Source of the DNA: Sinorhizobium fredii USDA 257
GTDB taxonomy: Bacteria > Pseudomonadota > Alphaproteobacteria > Rhizobiales > Rhizobiaceae
Direction of reading: 5' to 3'
DNA length: 64,000 nucleotides
Assembly: GCF_000265205.3 (NCBI RefSeq)
Contig: NT_187151.1
Span: 91,005-155,004 of the forward strand
Below are positions 19,106-64,000 of this stretch, one piece after another; the stretch's first letter is position 1; each line of letters opens with the position of its first letter. Under the pieces are notes generated by a model. That model worked only from the letters and a program-made list of their open reading frames with translations. It did not search any database and was not told the origin of the DNA. A program made the translations under genes and the position numbers.

Positions 19106-19121
19106 AGCAAAATACGTGCCA
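19106..19121 (-). promoter_or_regulatory. Sigma54 -24/-12 promoter for the M16 peptidase pair
   Basis: The minus strand reads TGGCACGTATTTTGCT, a perfect match to TGGCACG-N4-TTGCW. It lies 47 bases before the peptidase ATG and 63 bases downstream of a NifA site. Confidence 0.85.
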
Positions 19122-38390: not shown

Positions 38391-38406
38391 TGGCACGCCG
38401 CTTGCT
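38391..38406 (+). promoter_or_regulatory. Sigma54 -24/-12 promoter of the peroxiredoxin gene
   Basis: TGGCACGCCGCTTGCT is a perfect TGGCACG-N4-TTGCT match, 104 bases before the ATG at 38510. Confidence 0.85.
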
Positions 38407-50187: not shown

Positions 50188-50984
50188 AGAGGTCGGAATT
50201 CCCTGCAAGGCTACATAGGTTCGCGTGGTGCTGAAATCGGCGGGTCATGCAGATGGTGGGCGAAACCTTCGCCCGTGTTCTCTTCCCCAATCCTGACGCG
50301 CGACCTGCTCGGAGCCTGATGACCATCCTTATGTCTAACTGTTAGTAAGGCCGAACTTTTAACCTCCTTGGAGTGCGCCCTTTGGGCTGGACATGTATCA
50401 GGCTGCGGATTTGCCAGTTTTGGGGCGAGCCACCTCAACGGGCGTTATGATTTCCGGTGGATGTGGTTCTGTGCGTCAAGTTCAGGAAATTGAGGTGGGC
50501 ATGGCGCTGGACATGCGGCGCGAAGCAGAATGTCTTGGACGGCGGCGACGGCAGTCCGATCTTCAGTCTTGGTCGGTTGAGTTCCTCGTGGGGGCATCAG
50601 GTGACGGGAACATCACCGGCCTGCCACCGCCCCTCTCAGAGAATTTGCAGAACTCTCAGCACATTACCGTGAATCTTTACGGAGCTTGGAGCAAAAGATC
50701 GCGCGTCCGTCGAAGTGCATCGGCGCTGCTCCTGGTTCGCACAGTCTATTCTAACGCTGCCTATGAGATTCTACCTTCCTAAGTAGGTGCACGGGGCCGA
50801 CGCTGCCGTTTAAAGGTTCCAGGCCACCGCCAAAACTCCAGTCGTACTAAGGTTTGGGATCCACCTGAGAGCGGGTCGTTGCGGGCATATGGGCCGCACA
50901 CGTCAGGCGGGGCCATCCTGATGGACTTGTGAACGGTCATGCACCAACTTTCAAGACGGCAGTACTCATACCGCGATCTTTTCA
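50188..50984. other. Intergenic stretch, no supported gene
   Basis: A plus-strand frame at 50393-50782 is open but shows no start signal, domain or codon pattern that convinces me. The stretch ends at IS5 copy A. Confidence 0.35.
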
Positions 50985-51916
50985 GAGCCTGACTCGAAAA
51001 GGTCTCAACAATATCCGTACCTTGCCAAGCGTCGTGTCAGGACCCGGATGTGGGCGATAGTGATCCAAGCCTCGGCTGATGCGATGGACTTCTCCCAATC
51101 CTTAGCCAATCGTCGGCATCTGCCAAGCCATGCGAAGGTGCGCTCCACGACCCAGCGCCGCGGCAGAACTTCGAAGCCCTTGGCCTTGTCGGTCCGCTTG
51201 ACGATCTGGAGAGTGAAGGCAGCGATCTTTTGGAGTGCGCCCTTCAGCTTCGGTCCGGCATAACCACCGTCGGCGAAGATATGTCTCAGCCACGGCCAGC
51301 GCTTGAGAATGGTTTTGAGGACGGCAGGTGCGCCGTCGCGATCTTGGATATCGGCGCTGTGAACCCTGAGGCCGACCATCAACCCGAGCGTGTCGACGAC
51401 GATATGACGCTTCCGTCCCTTGATCTTCTTGCCCGCGTCATAGCCCGAAATTCCGCCGCTTTCCGTGGTTTTCACGCTTTGACTGTCAATCACGCCAGCA
51501 GATGGCGAGGCTTCCCGGCCTTCCAATTCGCGCGCCTCCATCACAAGATGATGGTTGATCCGACCCCATAACCCTGTCGCTCGCCATTCGTAGAAATAGG
51601 ACTGGACAGTTGTAAAAGGCGGAAAATCCTTGGGCATCATCCGCCACTGGCACCCCGTCGTGGCGATGTAAAGCAACGCATTCACGACCTCGCGAAGATC
51701 GGTGCTGCGCGGCCTGCCCAACCGCCGCGGTCCAGGCAGGCAAGGCGAGATCAATCCCCATTCCCGGTCCGTCAGATCGCTTGCATACCGCCTTGCGCGT
51801 CGGGCATATTGCCGCCGGGTGAAATCAGTCCAGCCCATTGTGGTCTCCGTTCGTCCTAAGCAAACAAACAGAATCACAACTGGCTGATTTCACTCAACTC
51901 TTTTTCGGTCAGGCTC
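50985..51916 (-). mobile_element. IS5-family insertion sequence, copy A
   Basis: Ends GAGCCTGACTCGAAAA (50985) and the complement of GAGCCTGACCGAAAAA (to 51916). It is 932 bases and identical to copy B (60786-61717) except for one silent base in an Arg codon (CGG here, CGT there). The flanking triplets are TCA (left) and TAA (right), which do not match, so no target duplication is present. Confidence 0.9.
51005..51838 (-). CDS. IS5-family transposase, copy A
   Basis: 277 residues from ATG 51838 (MGWTDFTRRQYARRARRYAS), GGAG 6 bases upstream. DDE domain of the IS5/IS1031 group: LTDREWGLISPCLPGPRRLG, GVIDSQSVKTTESGG (D), HIFADGGYAGPKL (D), RRWVVERTFAWLGRCRRLAKD (E). Intact. Confidence 0.92.
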   Translation of the reverse strand: MGWTDFTRRQYARRARRYASDLTDREWGLISPCLPGPRRLGRPRSTDLREVVNALLYIATTGCQWRMMPKDFPPFTTVQSYFYEWRATGLWGRINHHLVMEARELEGREASPSAGVIDSQSVKTTESGGISGYDAGKKIKGRKRHIVVDTLGLMVGLRVHSADIQDRDGAPAVLKTILKRWPWLRHIFADGGYAGPKLKGALQKIAAFTLQIVKRTDKAKGFEVLPRRWVVERTFAWLGRCRRLAKDWEKSIASAEAWITIAHIRVLTRRLARYGYC

Positions 51917-51917
51917 T

Positions 51918-54203: not shown

Positions 54204-54219
54204 TGGCACGGCCATTGCT
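54204..54219 (+). promoter_or_regulatory. Sigma54 -24/-12 promoter (dctA relic / peptide-binding protein)
   Basis: TGGCACGGCCATTGCT is a perfect match to TGGCACG-N4-TTGCT, 90 bases before the dctA relic start and 785 bases before the binding-protein gene. No TGT-N10-ACA was seen within 150 bases upstream. A palindrome GACAG-N6-CTGTC (54234-54249) lies near the expected transcription start. Confidence 0.8.
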
Positions 54220-54308
54220 CATCAGCTTCACATGACAGTCGCCGCTGTCGGCTTTCGGAAAATCGGCCTGGCAGGCGACCGGGCGCGCGCCATATGGAGG
54301 ATCTCCTG

Positions 54309-54740
54309 ATGACCATTGAGCATTCCGCGGAGACCCGCGCCAAGCCACCCTTATATCGCCATCTCTATGCCCAGGTTCTGGCAGCGATCGCGGGCATCCT
54401 GTTTGGATATTTCTATCCGGACATCGGAAAGCTTGGAATGATCATTGCACCGGTGATCTTCCTGAAGGTCGCGACGGAAATCGCAGGCATAACCGGTCTC
54501 GCCAAGGTTGGTCCCATCGCCGGCAAGGCGAGTTTGATACCTGACCTCGACTTTGGTACTTGCCGTCCACCTCGCGGTCATCAACGTGATGCAGTCGGGT
54601 GCGGGCAGTGCTTATCGATCCGGCCTCGCTCAATGCCGAGGCGGTCGCCGGCTGTGTGGAAAAGGCGCAAGAACAGTTGATGACCGGTTTCCTGATGCTG
54701 GTTATCCCGTCGACGCTTGTCAGCGACGAAGGAAGACTTT
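54309..54740 (+). pseudogene. dctA relic
   Basis: ATG 54309 ([20 protein letters not shown]) with GGAGG upstream, then [20 protein letters not shown] and [20 protein letters not shown], a clear DctA N-terminus. About 14 residues are deleted between the first two helices. The frame then shifts near 54540 ([10 protein letters not shown] and [20 protein letters not shown] in other frames), and similarity ends at about 54740. It is a second, dead copy of the intact gene at 35667-37136. Confidence 0.85.
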
Positions 54741-59853: not shown

Positions 59854-60201
59854 GCATGAGCCTGGGTCATGTCCATGATACGCATACAGCTCTGATCTCC
59901 CCACCGCCGCGGGGGGTCGTCGACCTGCTGTGCCGGCCGTTTGGCAGTGCGTGATTCGTCGACGCTTCTCTCTGACGCCGCTACGCCGTCGTCACGCTTT
60001 TGAGCGTATCCCGATGTTTCACTGAATGAATCGACTGGCGGAATCCGCAACTGAGCGGGCAAAAAGAGAGCGCTGTCCTTAGTGAAGAATTTTGCGGATG
60101 TCTACATTTCGGAGCGGCCGATTGGCCGGTTCGGGACTAAAGGTCGGCAAGTTGACAATGCATGCACTCTGAAAATGCACAAAATGACGACATTTTTAGG
60201 T
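59854..60201. other. Leader region upstream of the Nif11 gene, no gene
   Basis: No open frame with support. I searched it for TGT-N10-ACA and found none. Confidence 0.4.
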
Positions 60202-60217
60202 TGGCACGGCGCTTGCT
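60202..60217 (+). promoter_or_regulatory. Sigma54 -24/-12 promoter of the Nif11 peptide gene
   Basis: TGGCACGGCGCTTGCT is a perfect TGGCACG-N4-TTGCT match, 72 bases before the ATG. No canonical NifA site is visible within 300 bases upstream, so the activator is uncertain. Confidence 0.85.
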
Positions 60218-60288
60218 CGTTCACGGCATCATCCACGCCGGCAAGAGCGAGGCGGTGTAATTGGCAACTATGAGCAAAGGAATTAGCT

Positions 60289-60666
60289 ATGGCGCGAGCT
60301 GACGTAGAGCGATTCGTCAACGATTTGGACAAAGGCAGGCTGCCTGCAAACCTCAAGCCAAGTGCCACGGGTCTTGCACCAATCGTAGCGATCGGAAAGA
60401 GTCTCGGCTACAACATAACGCTTGACGAAGTTCAAAACTACATCCGATTGGACAGCCGACGGAAGTCTACTGGCAAGAAGCTCGACGCGATGGCGAACAG
60501 CAAGCGTGGCTCGCGCGTTCCGGCCTTGCCGCGCTTTGTACAATCTACTGCCTTAGATAGTCCCGTTACGGATGGACTCACGCGGCCGTTGCATATGGCT
60601 GAAAAGGGCGCCGCCGTCGCCGCGGTCGTTCAACTTGTTGTAATTGTTGTTCATGTTTCAAGCTGA
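60289..60666 (+). CDS. Nif11-type leader RiPP precursor peptide
   Basis: 125 residues, [25 protein letters not shown] 7 bases before the ATG. Residues 1-53 are a Nif11 leader domain ([36 protein letters not shown]). Residues 54-105 are a basic linker. The end is striking: AEKGA then [17 protein letters not shown]. Nif11 leaders are cleaved after Gly-Gly/Gly-Ala, so G107-A108 is a good site and the last 17 residues, nearly all Val/Ala/Ile/Leu, a plausible core. No Cys, and Ser/Thr only at the end, so epimerisation fits better than lanthionine chemistry. A PoyD-like epimerase gene follows. A membrane-anchored protein is the alternative. Confidence 0.75.
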
Positions 60667-60713
60667 TTTTTTTACCGGAGCGCATTGGCTTGGACGATCG
60701 GTGCGAAGAGAGC

Positions 60714-60785
60714 ATGACAGCAAATATCATCGGGAACGAGACATGCGATCTGGCCTACAAGAAACGGCTTCAAGGGCTCACCTTA
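60714..60785 (+). pseudogene. 5' fragment of the epimerase gene, cut off by IS5 copy B
   Basis: ATG 60714 begins MTANIIGNETCDLAYKKRLQ-GLTL and meets the IS at 60786. A 3-base target duplication (TTA) flanks the IS. It probably encoded the first residues of the radical SAM protein downstream, although exact excision would leave the two parts one base out of frame. Confidence 0.5.
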
Positions 60786-61717
60786 GAGCCTGACTCGAAA
60801 AGGTCTCAACAATATCCGTACCTTGCCAAGCGTCGTGTCAGGACCCGGATGTGGGCGATAGTGATCCAAGCCTCGGCTGATGCGATGGACTTCTCCCAAT
60901 CCTTAGCCAATCGTCGGCATCTGCCAAGCCATGCGAAGGTGCGCTCCACGACCCAGCGCCGCGGCAGAACTTCGAAGCCCTTGGCCTTGTCGGTCCGCTT
61001 GACGATCTGGAGAGTGAAGGCAGCGATCTTTTGGAGTGCGCCCTTCAGCTTCGGTCCGGCATAACCACCGTCGGCGAAGATATGTCTCAGCCACGGCCAG
61101 CGCTTGAGAATGGTTTTGAGGACGGCAGGTGCGCCGTCGCGATCTTGGATATCGGCGCTGTGAACCCTGAGGCCGACCATCAACCCGAGCGTGTCGACGA
61201 CGATATGACGCTTCCGTCCCTTGATCTTCTTGCCCGCGTCATAGCCCGAAATTCCGCCGCTTTCCGTGGTTTTCACGCTTTGACTGTCAATCACGCCAGC
61301 AGATGGCGAGGCTTCCCGGCCTTCCAATTCGCGCGCCTCCATCACAAGATGATGGTTGATCCGACCCCATAACCCTGTCGCTCGCCATTCGTAGAAATAG
61401 GACTGGACAGTTGTAAAAGGCGGAAAATCCTTGGGCATCATCCGCCACTGGCACCCCGTCGTGGCGATGTAAAGCAACGCATTCACGACCTCGCGAAGAT
61501 CGGTGCTGCGCGGCCTGCCCAACCGCCGCGGTCCAGGCAGGCAAGGCGAGATCAATCCCCATTCCCGGTCCGTCAGATCGCTTGCATACCGCCTTGCGCG
61601 TCGGGCATATTGCCGACGGGTGAAATCAGTCCAGCCCATTGTGGTCTCCGTTCGTCCTAAGCAAACAAACAGAATCACAACTGGCTGATTTCACTCAACT
61701 CTTTTTCGGTCAGGCTC
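60786..61717 (-). mobile_element. IS5-family insertion sequence, copy B
   Basis: 932 bases with inverted ends as in copy A, flanked by a TTA duplication (60783-60785 and 61718-61720). It differs from copy A by one base. It lies between the Nif11 peptide gene and the radical SAM gene and runs against them. Confidence 0.92.
60806..61639 (-). CDS. IS5-family transposase, copy B
   Basis: 277 residues identical in protein sequence to copy A, with ATG 61639 and GGAG upstream. All DDE motifs are present. Confidence 0.92.
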   Translation of the reverse strand: MGWTDFTRRQYARRARRYASDLTDREWGLISPCLPGPRRLGRPRSTDLREVVNALLYIATTGCQWRMMPKDFPPFTTVQSYFYEWRATGLWGRINHHLVMEARELEGREASPSAGVIDSQSVKTTESGGISGYDAGKKIKGRKRHIVVDTLGLMVGLRVHSADIQDRDGAPAVLKTILKRWPWLRHIFADGGYAGPKLKGALQKIAAFTLQIVKRTDKAKGFEVLPRRWVVERTFAWLGRCRRLAKDWEKSIASAEAWITIAHIRVLTRRLARYGYC

Positions 61718-61778
61718 TTATAAAGGCGAGTATTGGCGCCAGATCTTTAACCGGCGCACGCCGGAGCAACGGCGCACC

Positions 61779-63194
61779 TTGTCGCACATCAAGCGTTTCA
61801 TGGAACGGCTGGCTGGTGACATAAAGTTCCGCACCGCGGTTTCGGAGAGCGCCGACGCCCCTCGCGCGGTAACAGAGCGCTATGGCATTGAAGTTGACCC
61901 ACTGGAGATACTGCCGCTCTGGCGCGATGATCATCTTACTTACCGCTACAAGCCGGAGTCTGCACCATGGCCGCTGTCGATAATGTGGGACGAGTACATG
62001 CGCGACATGTTGCGCCATCGCGACCTCCTGCGCGACCATGGCGATATGTCAATGACCAACCCTCGCTTTCATGCCTGGCGCGAGCGCCAAATTCGGCGTT
62101 GTAATGACGAATTGGGCGGATCAGCACCGTCGATCACACACCCCATCATCGCTTTCGAGCTGAGGGAAGGGTGCACCGTCGGTTGCTGGTTCTGCGGCCT
62201 CTCGGCCGCTCCGTTCAAAGGCTATTACGAGTATAGCAAACAGCATGCAGAGCTTTGGCGCGGCGTGGTTGGTGTCGCGAGCGAGGTGTTTGGCCCGGCA
62301 GCTCGTACTGGGTTCTGCTACTGGGCCACAGAGCCAATGGACAACCCGCAGTACGACCGCTTTCTCTTCGACTACTATCAGATCACGGGCGCATTGCCGC
62401 AAACAACGACGGCCGCCCCGCTCAAGGATGAGGCACTCACCAGGCGCGTGCTCGGCCTCTTCAATCTTTATGGCACTACGATGAATCGCTTCTCTGTGCT
62501 CAGCACGGCACATCTCAATCAGATCCACAGGGCGTTTTCGCCTGAAGAACTGACAGGGGTCGAACTCATCATGCAGGGCAAGGACGCCCCGACCGCAAAG
62601 GCTTTCACGGGGCGTGCGCGCAAGCGGAAGGAGAAACTCAGTGCGAGGCAAGAGGCAATCGCCTTGACGGAGCGCAATCACACGACGATCGCCTGTGTTT
62701 CCGGCTTCCTCGTAAATATGCCGCAGAGACGTTTGCAACTAGTGACGCCGGTACCGGGTAGCGAACGCTGGCCCCTCGGGTATCGCATAGTGGGTCAACG
62801 GTCATTCAGGACGCCTGACGAGTTCCGGGACGGGCTCAAGAGCATGATTGATCAACATATGCTCGAGAGCCCAGCCCCCGACCTGCCGATCCGCTTTCGC
62901 AGGGACCTGGAGTACACAGCGGGAGACCGCTGCTTCCATCTCCGCTCGCGAAGCATGGAACACCGGGTGCTCGACTACGCTCCGATCTCGGTTGGCCATC
63001 TAATCGCGTGCGGCAACTTTACAGTTTCGGAGTTGGTTATGCGGGCCTCGACGGATGGAATGAGCGTACTTGCAGTCGCCGACCTGCTCGATCAGTTATA
63101 CGCGGCCGGCGTGATCGAAGAGGACCTCGGTGACCGCTATGCTTGGCAGACCAGCGACGGCATGAAAGACCGCATTGAAGAAGCTCAAGGATAG
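61779..63194 (+). CDS. Radical SAM RiPP-maturation epimerase (PoyD-like), 5' end disrupted
   Basis: The frame runs from the IS border (61719: YKGEYWRQIFNRRTPEQRRT) through a TTG at 61779 (SHIKRFMERLAGDIKFRTAV) to 63194; first ATG at 61800. Residues are numbered from the TTG. C132, C136 and C139 in EGCTVGCWFCGLSA give the CX3CX2C radical SAM site. FCYWATEPMDNPQYDRFLFD resembles the GGEP-like segment, and DRCFHLRSRSMEHRVLDYAP near the end is typical of the PoyD-type peptide epimerases that make D-residues in proteusins. The N-terminal helix region (FRTAVSES, YGIEVDP) may contact the leader. The natural start was removed by the IS, so function in this strain is doubtful. Confidence 0.75.
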   Translation: MSHIKRFMERLAGDIKFRTAVSESADAPRAVTERYGIEVDPLEILPLWRDDHLTYRYKPESAPWPLSIMWDEYMRDMLRHRDLLRDHGDMSMTNPRFHAWRERQIRRCNDELGGSAPSITHPIIAFELREGCTVGCWFCGLSAAPFKGYYEYSKQHAELWRGVVGVASEVFGPAARTGFCYWATEPMDNPQYDRFLFDYYQITGALPQTTTAAPLKDEALTRRVLGLFNLYGTTMNRFSVLSTAHLNQIHRAFSPEELTGVELIMQGKDAPTAKAFTGRARKRKEKLSARQEAIALTERNHTTIACVSGFLVNMPQRRLQLVTPVPGSERWPLGYRIVGQRSFRTPDEFRDGLKSMIDQHMLESPAPDLPIRFRRDLEYTAGDRCFHLRSRSMEHRVLDYAPISVGHLIACGNFTVSELVMRASTDGMSVLAVADLLDQLYAAGVIEEDLGDRYAWQTSDGMKDRIEEAQG

Positions 63195-63325: not shown

Positions 63326-63754
63326 TCACGGTGAAGAGAAGAAGCTCAATCCGTGACCAATTGAGCACTTATAGACCAGGCTCGTTCCTTTTCGCTCGTA
63401 ACTGGGCACATTGAAGACGACCATGGTGAATTCGGCGCCACCGTCCGGCCGGATCCGGTAACGAAGAAACTGGACAACCGGCTTACCGTCACGATCTATG
63501 GTAAAATGCTGATCTGCAAAAGCGAGGGTGCCGTCAGATGTGATCCTATAGCCGTCTATGCTAACGCCTCCACGCGTCTTGGTCGACGGTGTATCGGCAG
63601 TCGCCGGAGTGCACATGCCTAAAATCGACCGTCACACTCACCGGTTTGCCGGTAGTCAGCGCGCGTTCAAGCTCGCCAGTACATGACTATCGCCGGCGGC
63701 ATTGGCAGCTGTAGCAAACAGTATCCCGAATAAGGTTGCAACGATATGTTTCAC
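63326..63754 (-). pseudogene. virK-like gene, frameshifted
   Basis: It starts at GTG 63754 after AGAGGA with a signal peptide (MKHIVATLFGILFATAANAA). It continues in a second frame (ELERALTTGKPVSVTVDFRH, CRYTVDQDA) and a third (TRGGVSIDGYRITSDGTLAF, KPVVQFLRYRIRPDG, FNVPSYERKG) to 63326. Together these form a VirK-family periplasmic protein. Two frameshifts (near 63665 and 63580) inactivate it. Confidence 0.7.
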
Positions 63755-64000
63755 AGGTGGTCCTCTTTAGAGCGACTATACGGTTGACACGGCCCCTGCG
63801 GGCGAACCGGGGCTCGGCGGTTTCAAACAGGGCGCGGGTGGATTCATGGTGAGAGTGCGGCTTCGGACCGGAGCAGTTTGCCGACAGCCCATACCACTCG
63901 ATGCGGCAGCCGTGTGTGGAGAAGGCTCCGCGTCTACTGCTATCCTTGTCCCAATTGAATTCAACCCAAAATGCCACGCTATTCTAATGGGAAATCTCAG
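63755..64000. other. Window end, nothing recognised
   Basis: An open minus-strand frame overlaps the virK start and lacks support. No nod box or tts box was seen. Confidence 0.35.

Follow-up and report, generated by a model that had tools for sequence, protein, structure and literature searches.

The stretch of Sinorhizobium fredii USDA 257 DNA analyzed here (contig NT_187151.1, forward strand, positions 91,005 to 155,004; its full 64,000 nucleotides are called the window) very probably carries a decayed copy of a nodulation-associated, sigma54-driven cassette of rhizobia, in which a Nif11-type precursor gene and a PoyD-type radical SAM epimerase gene form a pathway for a ribosomally synthesized and post-translationally modified peptide (RiPP). 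Families, promoter, distribution and insertion were read from sequence and the RRE fold of the epimerase from a model; chemistry, NifA control, leader cleavage and function are inferred. In the window, an IS5-family element cuts the epimerase gene from its start.

Precursor, epimerase and promoter

The region at 61719..63194 (+) matched the TIGR04517 profile (rSAM_PoyD) from position 1 to 446 of 446 with 555.7 bits against a cut-off of 325, identifying a 5'-truncated PoyD-type radical SAM peptide epimerase. This bears out the initial annotation, which had noted a CX3CX2C radical SAM protein with PoyD-like features. In an alignment of the window sequence with 117 of the best 120 among 1279 homologues (three shorter than 450 residues were dropped), each cysteine of the CX3CX2C cluster motif (62172..62195, +) was present in 117 of 118 sequences, as was Cys200; Cys326 (62694..62696, +) is the only strictly invariant cysteine (118/118). 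It is a candidate H-atom donor by analogy to Cys372 of PoyD, an enzyme absent from the alignment, for which the available text of PMC8326336 gives this role. The C-terminus of the epimerase qualified as an RRE domain, with the RRE fold shown by the model, and a sequence search of solved structures returned 0 matches. L-to-D epimerization would be the activity predicted for a PoyD-type enzyme. Ratios of nonsynonymous to synonymous substitution rates (dN/dS) were 0.07–0.34 for the enzyme, in pairs with more than 4 changes, and 0.20–0.57 for the precursor, which suggests purifying selection on both. Window and S. shofinae enzymes differ by 4 nucleotide changes over 471 codons, too few for a dN/dS to be computed.

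The 125-residue open reading frame (ORF) with an aliphatic tail was found as described, at 60289..60666 (+). Its residues 1–47 aligned with PF07862 (Nif11) at 18.1 bits (E=0.0032; cut-off 23.8); no NCBIfam model matched, TIGR03798 included, and the NHLP leader model TIGR03793 gave no match up to E=1. Among six homologues tested, four passed PF07862 (L013, L022, L023, P0176; L010 and L021 failed) and two TIGR03798 (L022, P0176). The proposed Nif11 leader is thus retained by homology to proteins above the cut-off and not by its own score, and we regard the ORF as the precursor gene of a RiPP with a divergent Nif11 leader, a weak but real relationship at the sequence level. A 17-residue core behind a Gly-Ala site had also been suggested. 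We rejected this core as unsupported: 9 of the 10 precursors aligned retain Gly107, Ala108 is not conserved, and the leaders of many relatives end in LDAI(A/V)GG, aligning about 36 residues before Gly107-Ala108. The core probably comprises about 54 residues rather than 17. In this division the leader would span residues 1–71 (60289..60501, +), with residues 70–71 (NS) aligning with the Gly-Gly of the relatives, and the probable core residues 72–125 (60502..60663, +), including the 17-residue aliphatic tail at 60613-60663 (+). A Gly-Gly leader end was found by strict pattern in 31 of 72 homologues and is retained in several Mesorhizobium, Aminobacter and Bradyrhizobium loci; it is absent from the window precursor, which reads ANSKRG at this place, and the S. 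kostiense group has AGRKRG. In 58 of the 72 homologues, 14–16 of the last 17 residues are Val, Ile, Leu or Ala, and several of the eight with the lowest content look frame-shifted.

The perfect -24/-12 promoter was recovered as the box TGGCACGGCGCTTGCT at 60202..60217 (+), an exact TGGCACG-N4-TTGCT whose first base lies 87 bases from the ORF start. The pattern TGGCACG-N4-TTGCW occurs four times on both strands of the window where shuffles predict 0.03, a number that suits a nif region; directly upstream of the precursor locus are the genes for NifS (573.8 bits, cut-off 530.75) and NifW (179.7, cut-off 117). Scanning 350 bases upstream of the relatives' precursors at a threshold of 10 of 12 consensus positions revealed a box in 34 of 41 non-redundant regions (letter shuffles: mean 0.66, maximum 4), at about -83 to -168, which upholds the description of the locus as sigma54-driven. 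In the genus of genome G064, taken for Bradyrhizobium because five of its enzymes are identical to named Bradyrhizobium ones and one is that of strain DOA9, all 27 loci with a precursor (29 in the set, two without one in reach) had a box at -82 to -98, several being near-copies.

Upstream of the window promoter, a degenerate NifA-type element, GGTCGGCAAGTTGACA (60142..60157, +), agrees with TGT-N10-ACA at 5 of 6 positions. A perfect site, TGTCGGCAAGTTGACA, stands at a similar place (-156) in the Sinorhizobium locus L029, and several Bradyrhizobium loci have TGTCGGCAAGTTGACG at -143 to -146; exact TGT-N10-ACA was found upstream in L023, L029, L041, L050 and others. With exact sites in some relatives and 5 of 6 positions here, NifA is a plausible activator of the window promoter.

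The other exact sigma54 boxes of the window lie at 54204-54219 (+), 38391-38406 (+) and 19106-19121 (-), the first of these 5' of a 128-residue ORF (54294-54680). S. meliloti RCAM1115 (L023, 5191-7933) carries four tandem Nif11 precursors 5' of its epimerase, and a sigma54 box was found within 400 bases upstream of the first and third only.

Insertion element and decay of the window copy

An IS5-family element (60785..61718, -; NF033580, DDE_Tnp_1) with the inverted ends AGAGCCTGAC lies between the two genes. Its transposase (60806-61678, -) scored 265.5 bits with NF033580, and a second, 99.9% identical copy of the element occupies 50984-51917 of the window. Of the precursor–enzyme pair described initially, both families are therefore present and the pair itself is not intact. 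The first 14 codons of the epimerase gene, their start assigned by homology, were left on the far side of the element (60743..60784, +). Rejoining the flanks yields exactly the uninterrupted sequence of S. shofinae (L008), an empty site; S. shofinae has an intact copy. There, homology to S. kostiense (L010) places the ATG 14 codons 5' of the insertion point; earlier starts are also open. Position 61719, previously given as the start of the enzyme, is the first base 3' of the element and begins no start codon, the first in-frame ATG, GTG or TTG being TTG 61779.

The window epimerase departs from the consensus at three positions of at least 90% conservation. Among them is Ser149Arg (62163..62165, +), three positions ahead of the first Fe-S cysteine, where conservation is 99%; Arg149 occurred in 3 of 3 insertion-bearing and 0 of 20 insertion-free loci examined, some loci being the same strain twice. 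Near-identical flanks were found in seven plasmid records. Four of them share the insertion junction (S. sojae CCBAU 05684, S. fredii CCBAU 45436, CCBAU 25509 and CP035039), and CCBAU 05631, CCBAU 83666 and NGR234 lack it; 11 other records match the insertion element portion only, give or take a few bases. The simplest reading of these sequences would be one insertion, followed by decay and spread with the symbiosis plasmid. Because of interruption and substitution, the window strain is expected to make no D-amino-acid peptide from this locus, and its copy is probably dead. The window tail, broken by Gln and His, is identical in the insertion-free S. shofinae, NGR234 and CCBAU 83666 and is therefore not a product of the insertion.

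We also considered a second genomic copy of the epimerase (C2, C5). C5 (L007) starts at window position 61720, one base inside the insertion junction, and from there matches the final 2281 window bases exactly, up to 64000; an assembly overlap is consequently likelier than a second arrangement, and the candidate was set aside. Further ORFs of C5 resemble the IS21, IS110 and cytochrome c peroxidase genes of pSF45436a in size and order. Downstream, a VirK-family gene (63326-63762, -) encodes 145 residues in S. shofinae and NGR234 but is reduced to a 96-residue ORF in the window and in S. fredii CCBAU 45436; it is probably, by this comparison, a second decayed gene of the same haplotype.

Distribution, nodulation and expression

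A pattern scan of an 84,980-species collection retrieved 10 enzyme loci, five from Sinorhizobium/Ensifer and five from Bradyrhizobium, each with a homologous precursor just 5' of the enzyme (10/10; the enzyme of L016 is frame-shifted). Within a plasmid collection, the enzyme was found in 60 records (Sinorhizobium 28, Rhizobium 24, Mesorhizobium 5, others three), in 44 of them over at least 80% of the query, and the precursor in 46, all among these 60. Precursor and epimerase thus recur together in other rhizobia, namely in Sinorhizobium, Bradyrhizobium, Mesorhizobium and Rhizobium. Adjacency is not universal, and in CP050298 some 5 kb separate the two. The enzyme is already annotated at NCBI as "radical SAM family RiPP maturation amino acid epimerase", and "Nif11-like leader peptide family natural product precursor" is the name given there to many of the precursors. 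The synonymous divergence (dS) between the S. kostiense and B. agreste enzymes is only 0.48, and Mesorhizobium L048 and Bradyrhizobium-type L066 fall among the Sinorhizobium enzymes in the tree with modest support; together, this suggests horizontal transfer of the cassette. Decay is frequent, with split matches only in 7 of 28 enzyme-positive Bradyrhizobium genomes by our reading of the match table. Several Bradyrhizobium-type genomes (L041, L082, L083) share an epimerase broken into three pieces, an open precursor and a box matching 10 of 12 positions.

The epimerase exceeded the cut-off in 3 of 397 genomes of an order-level and 7 of 374 of a family-level survey; as these were too sparse, Bradyrhizobium was used to examine the link with nodulation. 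Its 243 genomes comprised 28 with the enzyme (E <= 0.001; 25 over the cut-off), 134 with nodA and 151 with nifH. All 28 enzyme-positive genomes carried nodA, and none of the 109 nodA-negative genomes carried the enzyme (Fisher p 1.4e-8, relatedness uncorrected); 27 of the 28 carried nifH, with the exception of G635 (Fisher p 1.2e-5, likewise uncorrected). Within the genus of the window, the enzyme exceeded the cut-off in 14 of 33 genomes, with fragments in two more, and all 14 had nifH over its cut-off; since nifH is present in 29 of the 33, the association cannot be tested there. In Rhizobium sp. NXC14, nifHDKEN starts 1.8 kb downstream.

Published expression data exist for members of the family. 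For Bradyrhizobium DOA9, the available text of PMC13207237 reports a "nif11" gene that has a box at -76, TGGCACGCTCCTTGC, and is expressed less when rpoN is mutated; its locus tag, containing p, is taken for that of a symbiotic megaplasmid gene. We located this box at L070:862; a Nif11-type precursor ORF starts 76 bases beyond its end, and the enzyme after this precursor is identical over 494 residues to the NCBI-named DOA9 protein. The conserved promoter and the decrease in DOA9 rpoN mutants support the earlier term "nitrogen-regulated"; direct control by NifA stays plausible only. MCHK_12735, which is the precursor of L022, was quantified in M. huakuii bacteroids and is one of the proteins with altered levels in a hypE mutant (listed value 0.50), according to the accessible part of PMC10454058. 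The portion of PMC8436566 at hand lists a "Nif11 family protein" and an adjacent-numbered "amino acid epimerase" falling in abiEi-mutant nodules (log2 -4.35 and -4.46) together with nif/fix genes; the tags of this pair are on pMHa and were unmatched to the loci analyzed here. A further precursor-type gene, MCHK_RS31365, fell more steeply in M. huakuii mutant nodules (log2 -6.00; Table 4 of the same excerpt). In the available portions of these three papers, the pair is nowhere treated as a RiPP pathway.

Fuller clusters exist in part of the family. Among 29 loci with 1.4–10 kb of flanking sequence, 10 have a radical SAM C-methyltransferase of the TIGR03975 type 3' of the enzyme, one of them partial (731–762 bits in three tested); among 72 loci, many with short flanks (0.6–1.5 kb downstream), 27 have it. 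The most complete cluster, on Aminobacter pANY103c (from Lotus), encodes a Gly-Gly precursor, the epimerase, a GNAT protein, the C-methyltransferase, an NHLP secretion protein and a peptidase-containing NHLP export ABC transporter; 5' of this cluster is a gene for an S46-family peptidase (L050, 1-1984). Such an exporter was found in this one of the 29 loci, a weak 28% match in L052 being uncounted. Precursor and epimerase only are present in the group of S. fredii, S. kostiense, S. aridi and S. americanum and in part of the Bradyrhizobium loci; the S. meliloti loci L023 and L053 have the C-methyltransferase. Across 15 loci compared, precursor and epimerase occurred in 15 and any other gene, C-methyltransferase included, in at most three. 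The S. fredii group showed no conserved processing or transport gene next door; an MFS transporter and a pitrilysin peptidase of NGR234 were dismissed as processing genes, lying about 5 and 8 kb off and not recurring in the other 14 loci. The aliphatic run has a median of 14 residues where no C-methyltransferase was seen (16 distinct tails) versus 10 where one was (19; p 0.006, two distant loci dropped, kinship uncorrected). The presence or absence of the C-methyltransferase needs five changes on the epimerase tree, whose rooting is uncertain owing to long outgroup branches; its loss rather than gain is therefore what we infer.

Interpretation and known systems

In intact relatives, a sigma54 promoter, presumably activated by NifA, would switch on the Nif11-leader precursor in the nitrogen-fixing, low-oxygen state. 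The C-terminal RRE domain of the adjacent PoyD-type enzyme would hold the leader, and the enzyme would take the alpha-hydrogen from Val, Leu or Ala of the core and return one from the other face via the conserved Cys, so that D-residues would arise in a core that is very hydrophobic and rich in Val. In some relatives the core might also be C-methylated (TIGR03975), and one encodes an NHLP exporter predicted to cleave the leader. The version of S. fredii, S. kostiense, S. aridi and S. americanum, not that of S. meliloti, would work with precursor and epimerase only and a leader lacking the Gly-Gly site. No epimerization is expected in the window strain and the four S. fredii/S. sojae plasmids, where the IS5 element parts the enzyme from its start.

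Several results weigh against this reading. The window leader falls below both curated Nif11 cut-offs, and exact TGT-N10-ACA is absent within 350 bp of its promoter, the 5-of-6 match at 60142 being the best. Seven of the 41 upstream regions had no box at 10/12, namely those of R. johnstonii 3841, R. leguminosarum trifolii L049 and L055, L039, L040, L045 and L053, among which L040 is very distant, L045 a fragment and L053 probably a later precursor of a tandem array. Foldseek gave no PDB match at E <= 0.001 (best 1.7e-3). As many as 106 of the 134 nodA-positive Bradyrhizobium genomes lack the enzyme, so nodulation does not require the cassette, and the matches listed include relatives from Roseibium litorale and Acuticoccus kandeliae. 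A start at TTG 61779 could still give a shortened enzyme.

That last start leads to an alternative we consider improbable, namely that the interrupted locus still functions, with translation from TTG 61779 or ATG 61803, transcription from an insertion element promoter or by read-through, and a peptide that is still modified. The frame is indeed open over all 446 TIGR04517 positions, profile position 1 falling at the TTG, and the near-identity to S. shofinae over 471 codons fits a working gene; yet the stretch WRQIFNRRTPEQRRT (with small changes in other loci) and the native start lie 5' of the TTG or of the element, Ser149Arg at its conserved site marks the insertion-bearing copies (some strains repeated), and the transposase is oriented antisense to the epimerase. 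Still less probable, in our judgment, is that the tail serves as a membrane anchor, which would make the Nif11 protein a small membrane protein instead of a RiPP precursor. The almost purely aliphatic composition of the tail, shared by 58 of 72 homologues, would suit an anchor; it is countered by the epimerase in all 46 plasmid records with the precursor, by the Gly-Gly leader end in many relatives and the peptidase-containing exporter at one locus, and by the epimerization of Val and Ile in PlpA (available text of PMC8326336).

As to purpose, the cassette might specify a narrow-spectrum bacteriocin for rhizosphere or nodule competition rather than a bacteroid or plant signal, which we regard as possible though unlikely. 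"NHLP bacteriocin" export genes in one relative point this way, and patchy distribution and frequent decay are compatible with an arms race. The sigma54 promoter and the nodA association, however, favor nodule expression, the exporter is confined to one of 29 loci, and with no third gene in more than three of 15 loci there is no shared immunity gene. More speculatively, and with low confidence, we propose that nodulating alpha-proteobacteria use a horizontally moved, sigma54/NifA-switched cassette to make a D/L-patterned poly-valine peptide in nodules, which would have its effect in the membrane of the bacteroid itself or of the symbiosome and not as an exported antibiotic. This proposal draws on the missing adjacent C-methyltransferase and exporter in part of Bradyrhizobium and, S. 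meliloti excepted, in most Sinorhizobium, on the missing Gly-Gly of those Sinorhizobium, and on the aliphatic core end of typically 12–16 residues; the product might form a helix like that of gramicidin or polytheonamide.

What makes the locus interesting is its family, which appears from its sequences to be a nodulation-linked, sigma54-driven epimerized RiPP whose chemistry and purpose we can so far only propose. Named strains with the cassette include NGR234, R. johnstonii 3841, M. huakuii 7653R and DOA9, for the most part with a promoter of the nitrogen-fixation type in front of it, and a published proteome of bacteroids contains one precursor. The question of the in planta natural products of nodule bacteria is thereby directly testable, and the repeated decay of the cassette provides natural plus/minus pairs. 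By titles and abstracts, no report of a D-amino-acid RiPP from rhizobia was found in the open literature, most subscription papers being outside this scope.

Polytheonamide has a Val-rich core. Its PoyA/PoyD/PoyC pathway resembles the rhizobial cassette in the TIGR04517 epimerase, the long aliphatic core and the radical SAM C-methyltransferase that 10 of 29 loci have close to the epimerase gene (roles of PoyD and PoyC: available text of PMC8326336, for PoyC via a reference title). In contrast, the rhizobial leader is of the Nif11 and not the nitrile-hydratase type, a sigma54 box is present, most Sinorhizobium have two genes only, and no third gene is common to more than three of 15 loci, tailoring enzymes not having been sought singly. 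The cyanobacterial PlpD, OspD and AvpD are likewise PoyD-type epimerases acting on long-leader precursors, as described in the same excerpt; the rhizobial cores differ by ending in long aliphatic tails, in nodulating strains and behind -24/-12 promoters, and identity to two cyanobacterial homologues in the plasmid collection is 35–37%. Epipeptide enzymes (EpeE/YydG) stand apart, having two Fe-S clusters and no significant homology to proteusin epimerases (same text). Nif11-derived peptides (N11P, TIGR03798; Haft 2010, PMC2887384, in its available part) share the leader family and, with part of the relatives, the Gly-Gly end, whereas those described there are skewed to cyanobacteria and to lanthionine or azole chemistry, and the window copy lies below the cut-off and is without Gly-Gly.

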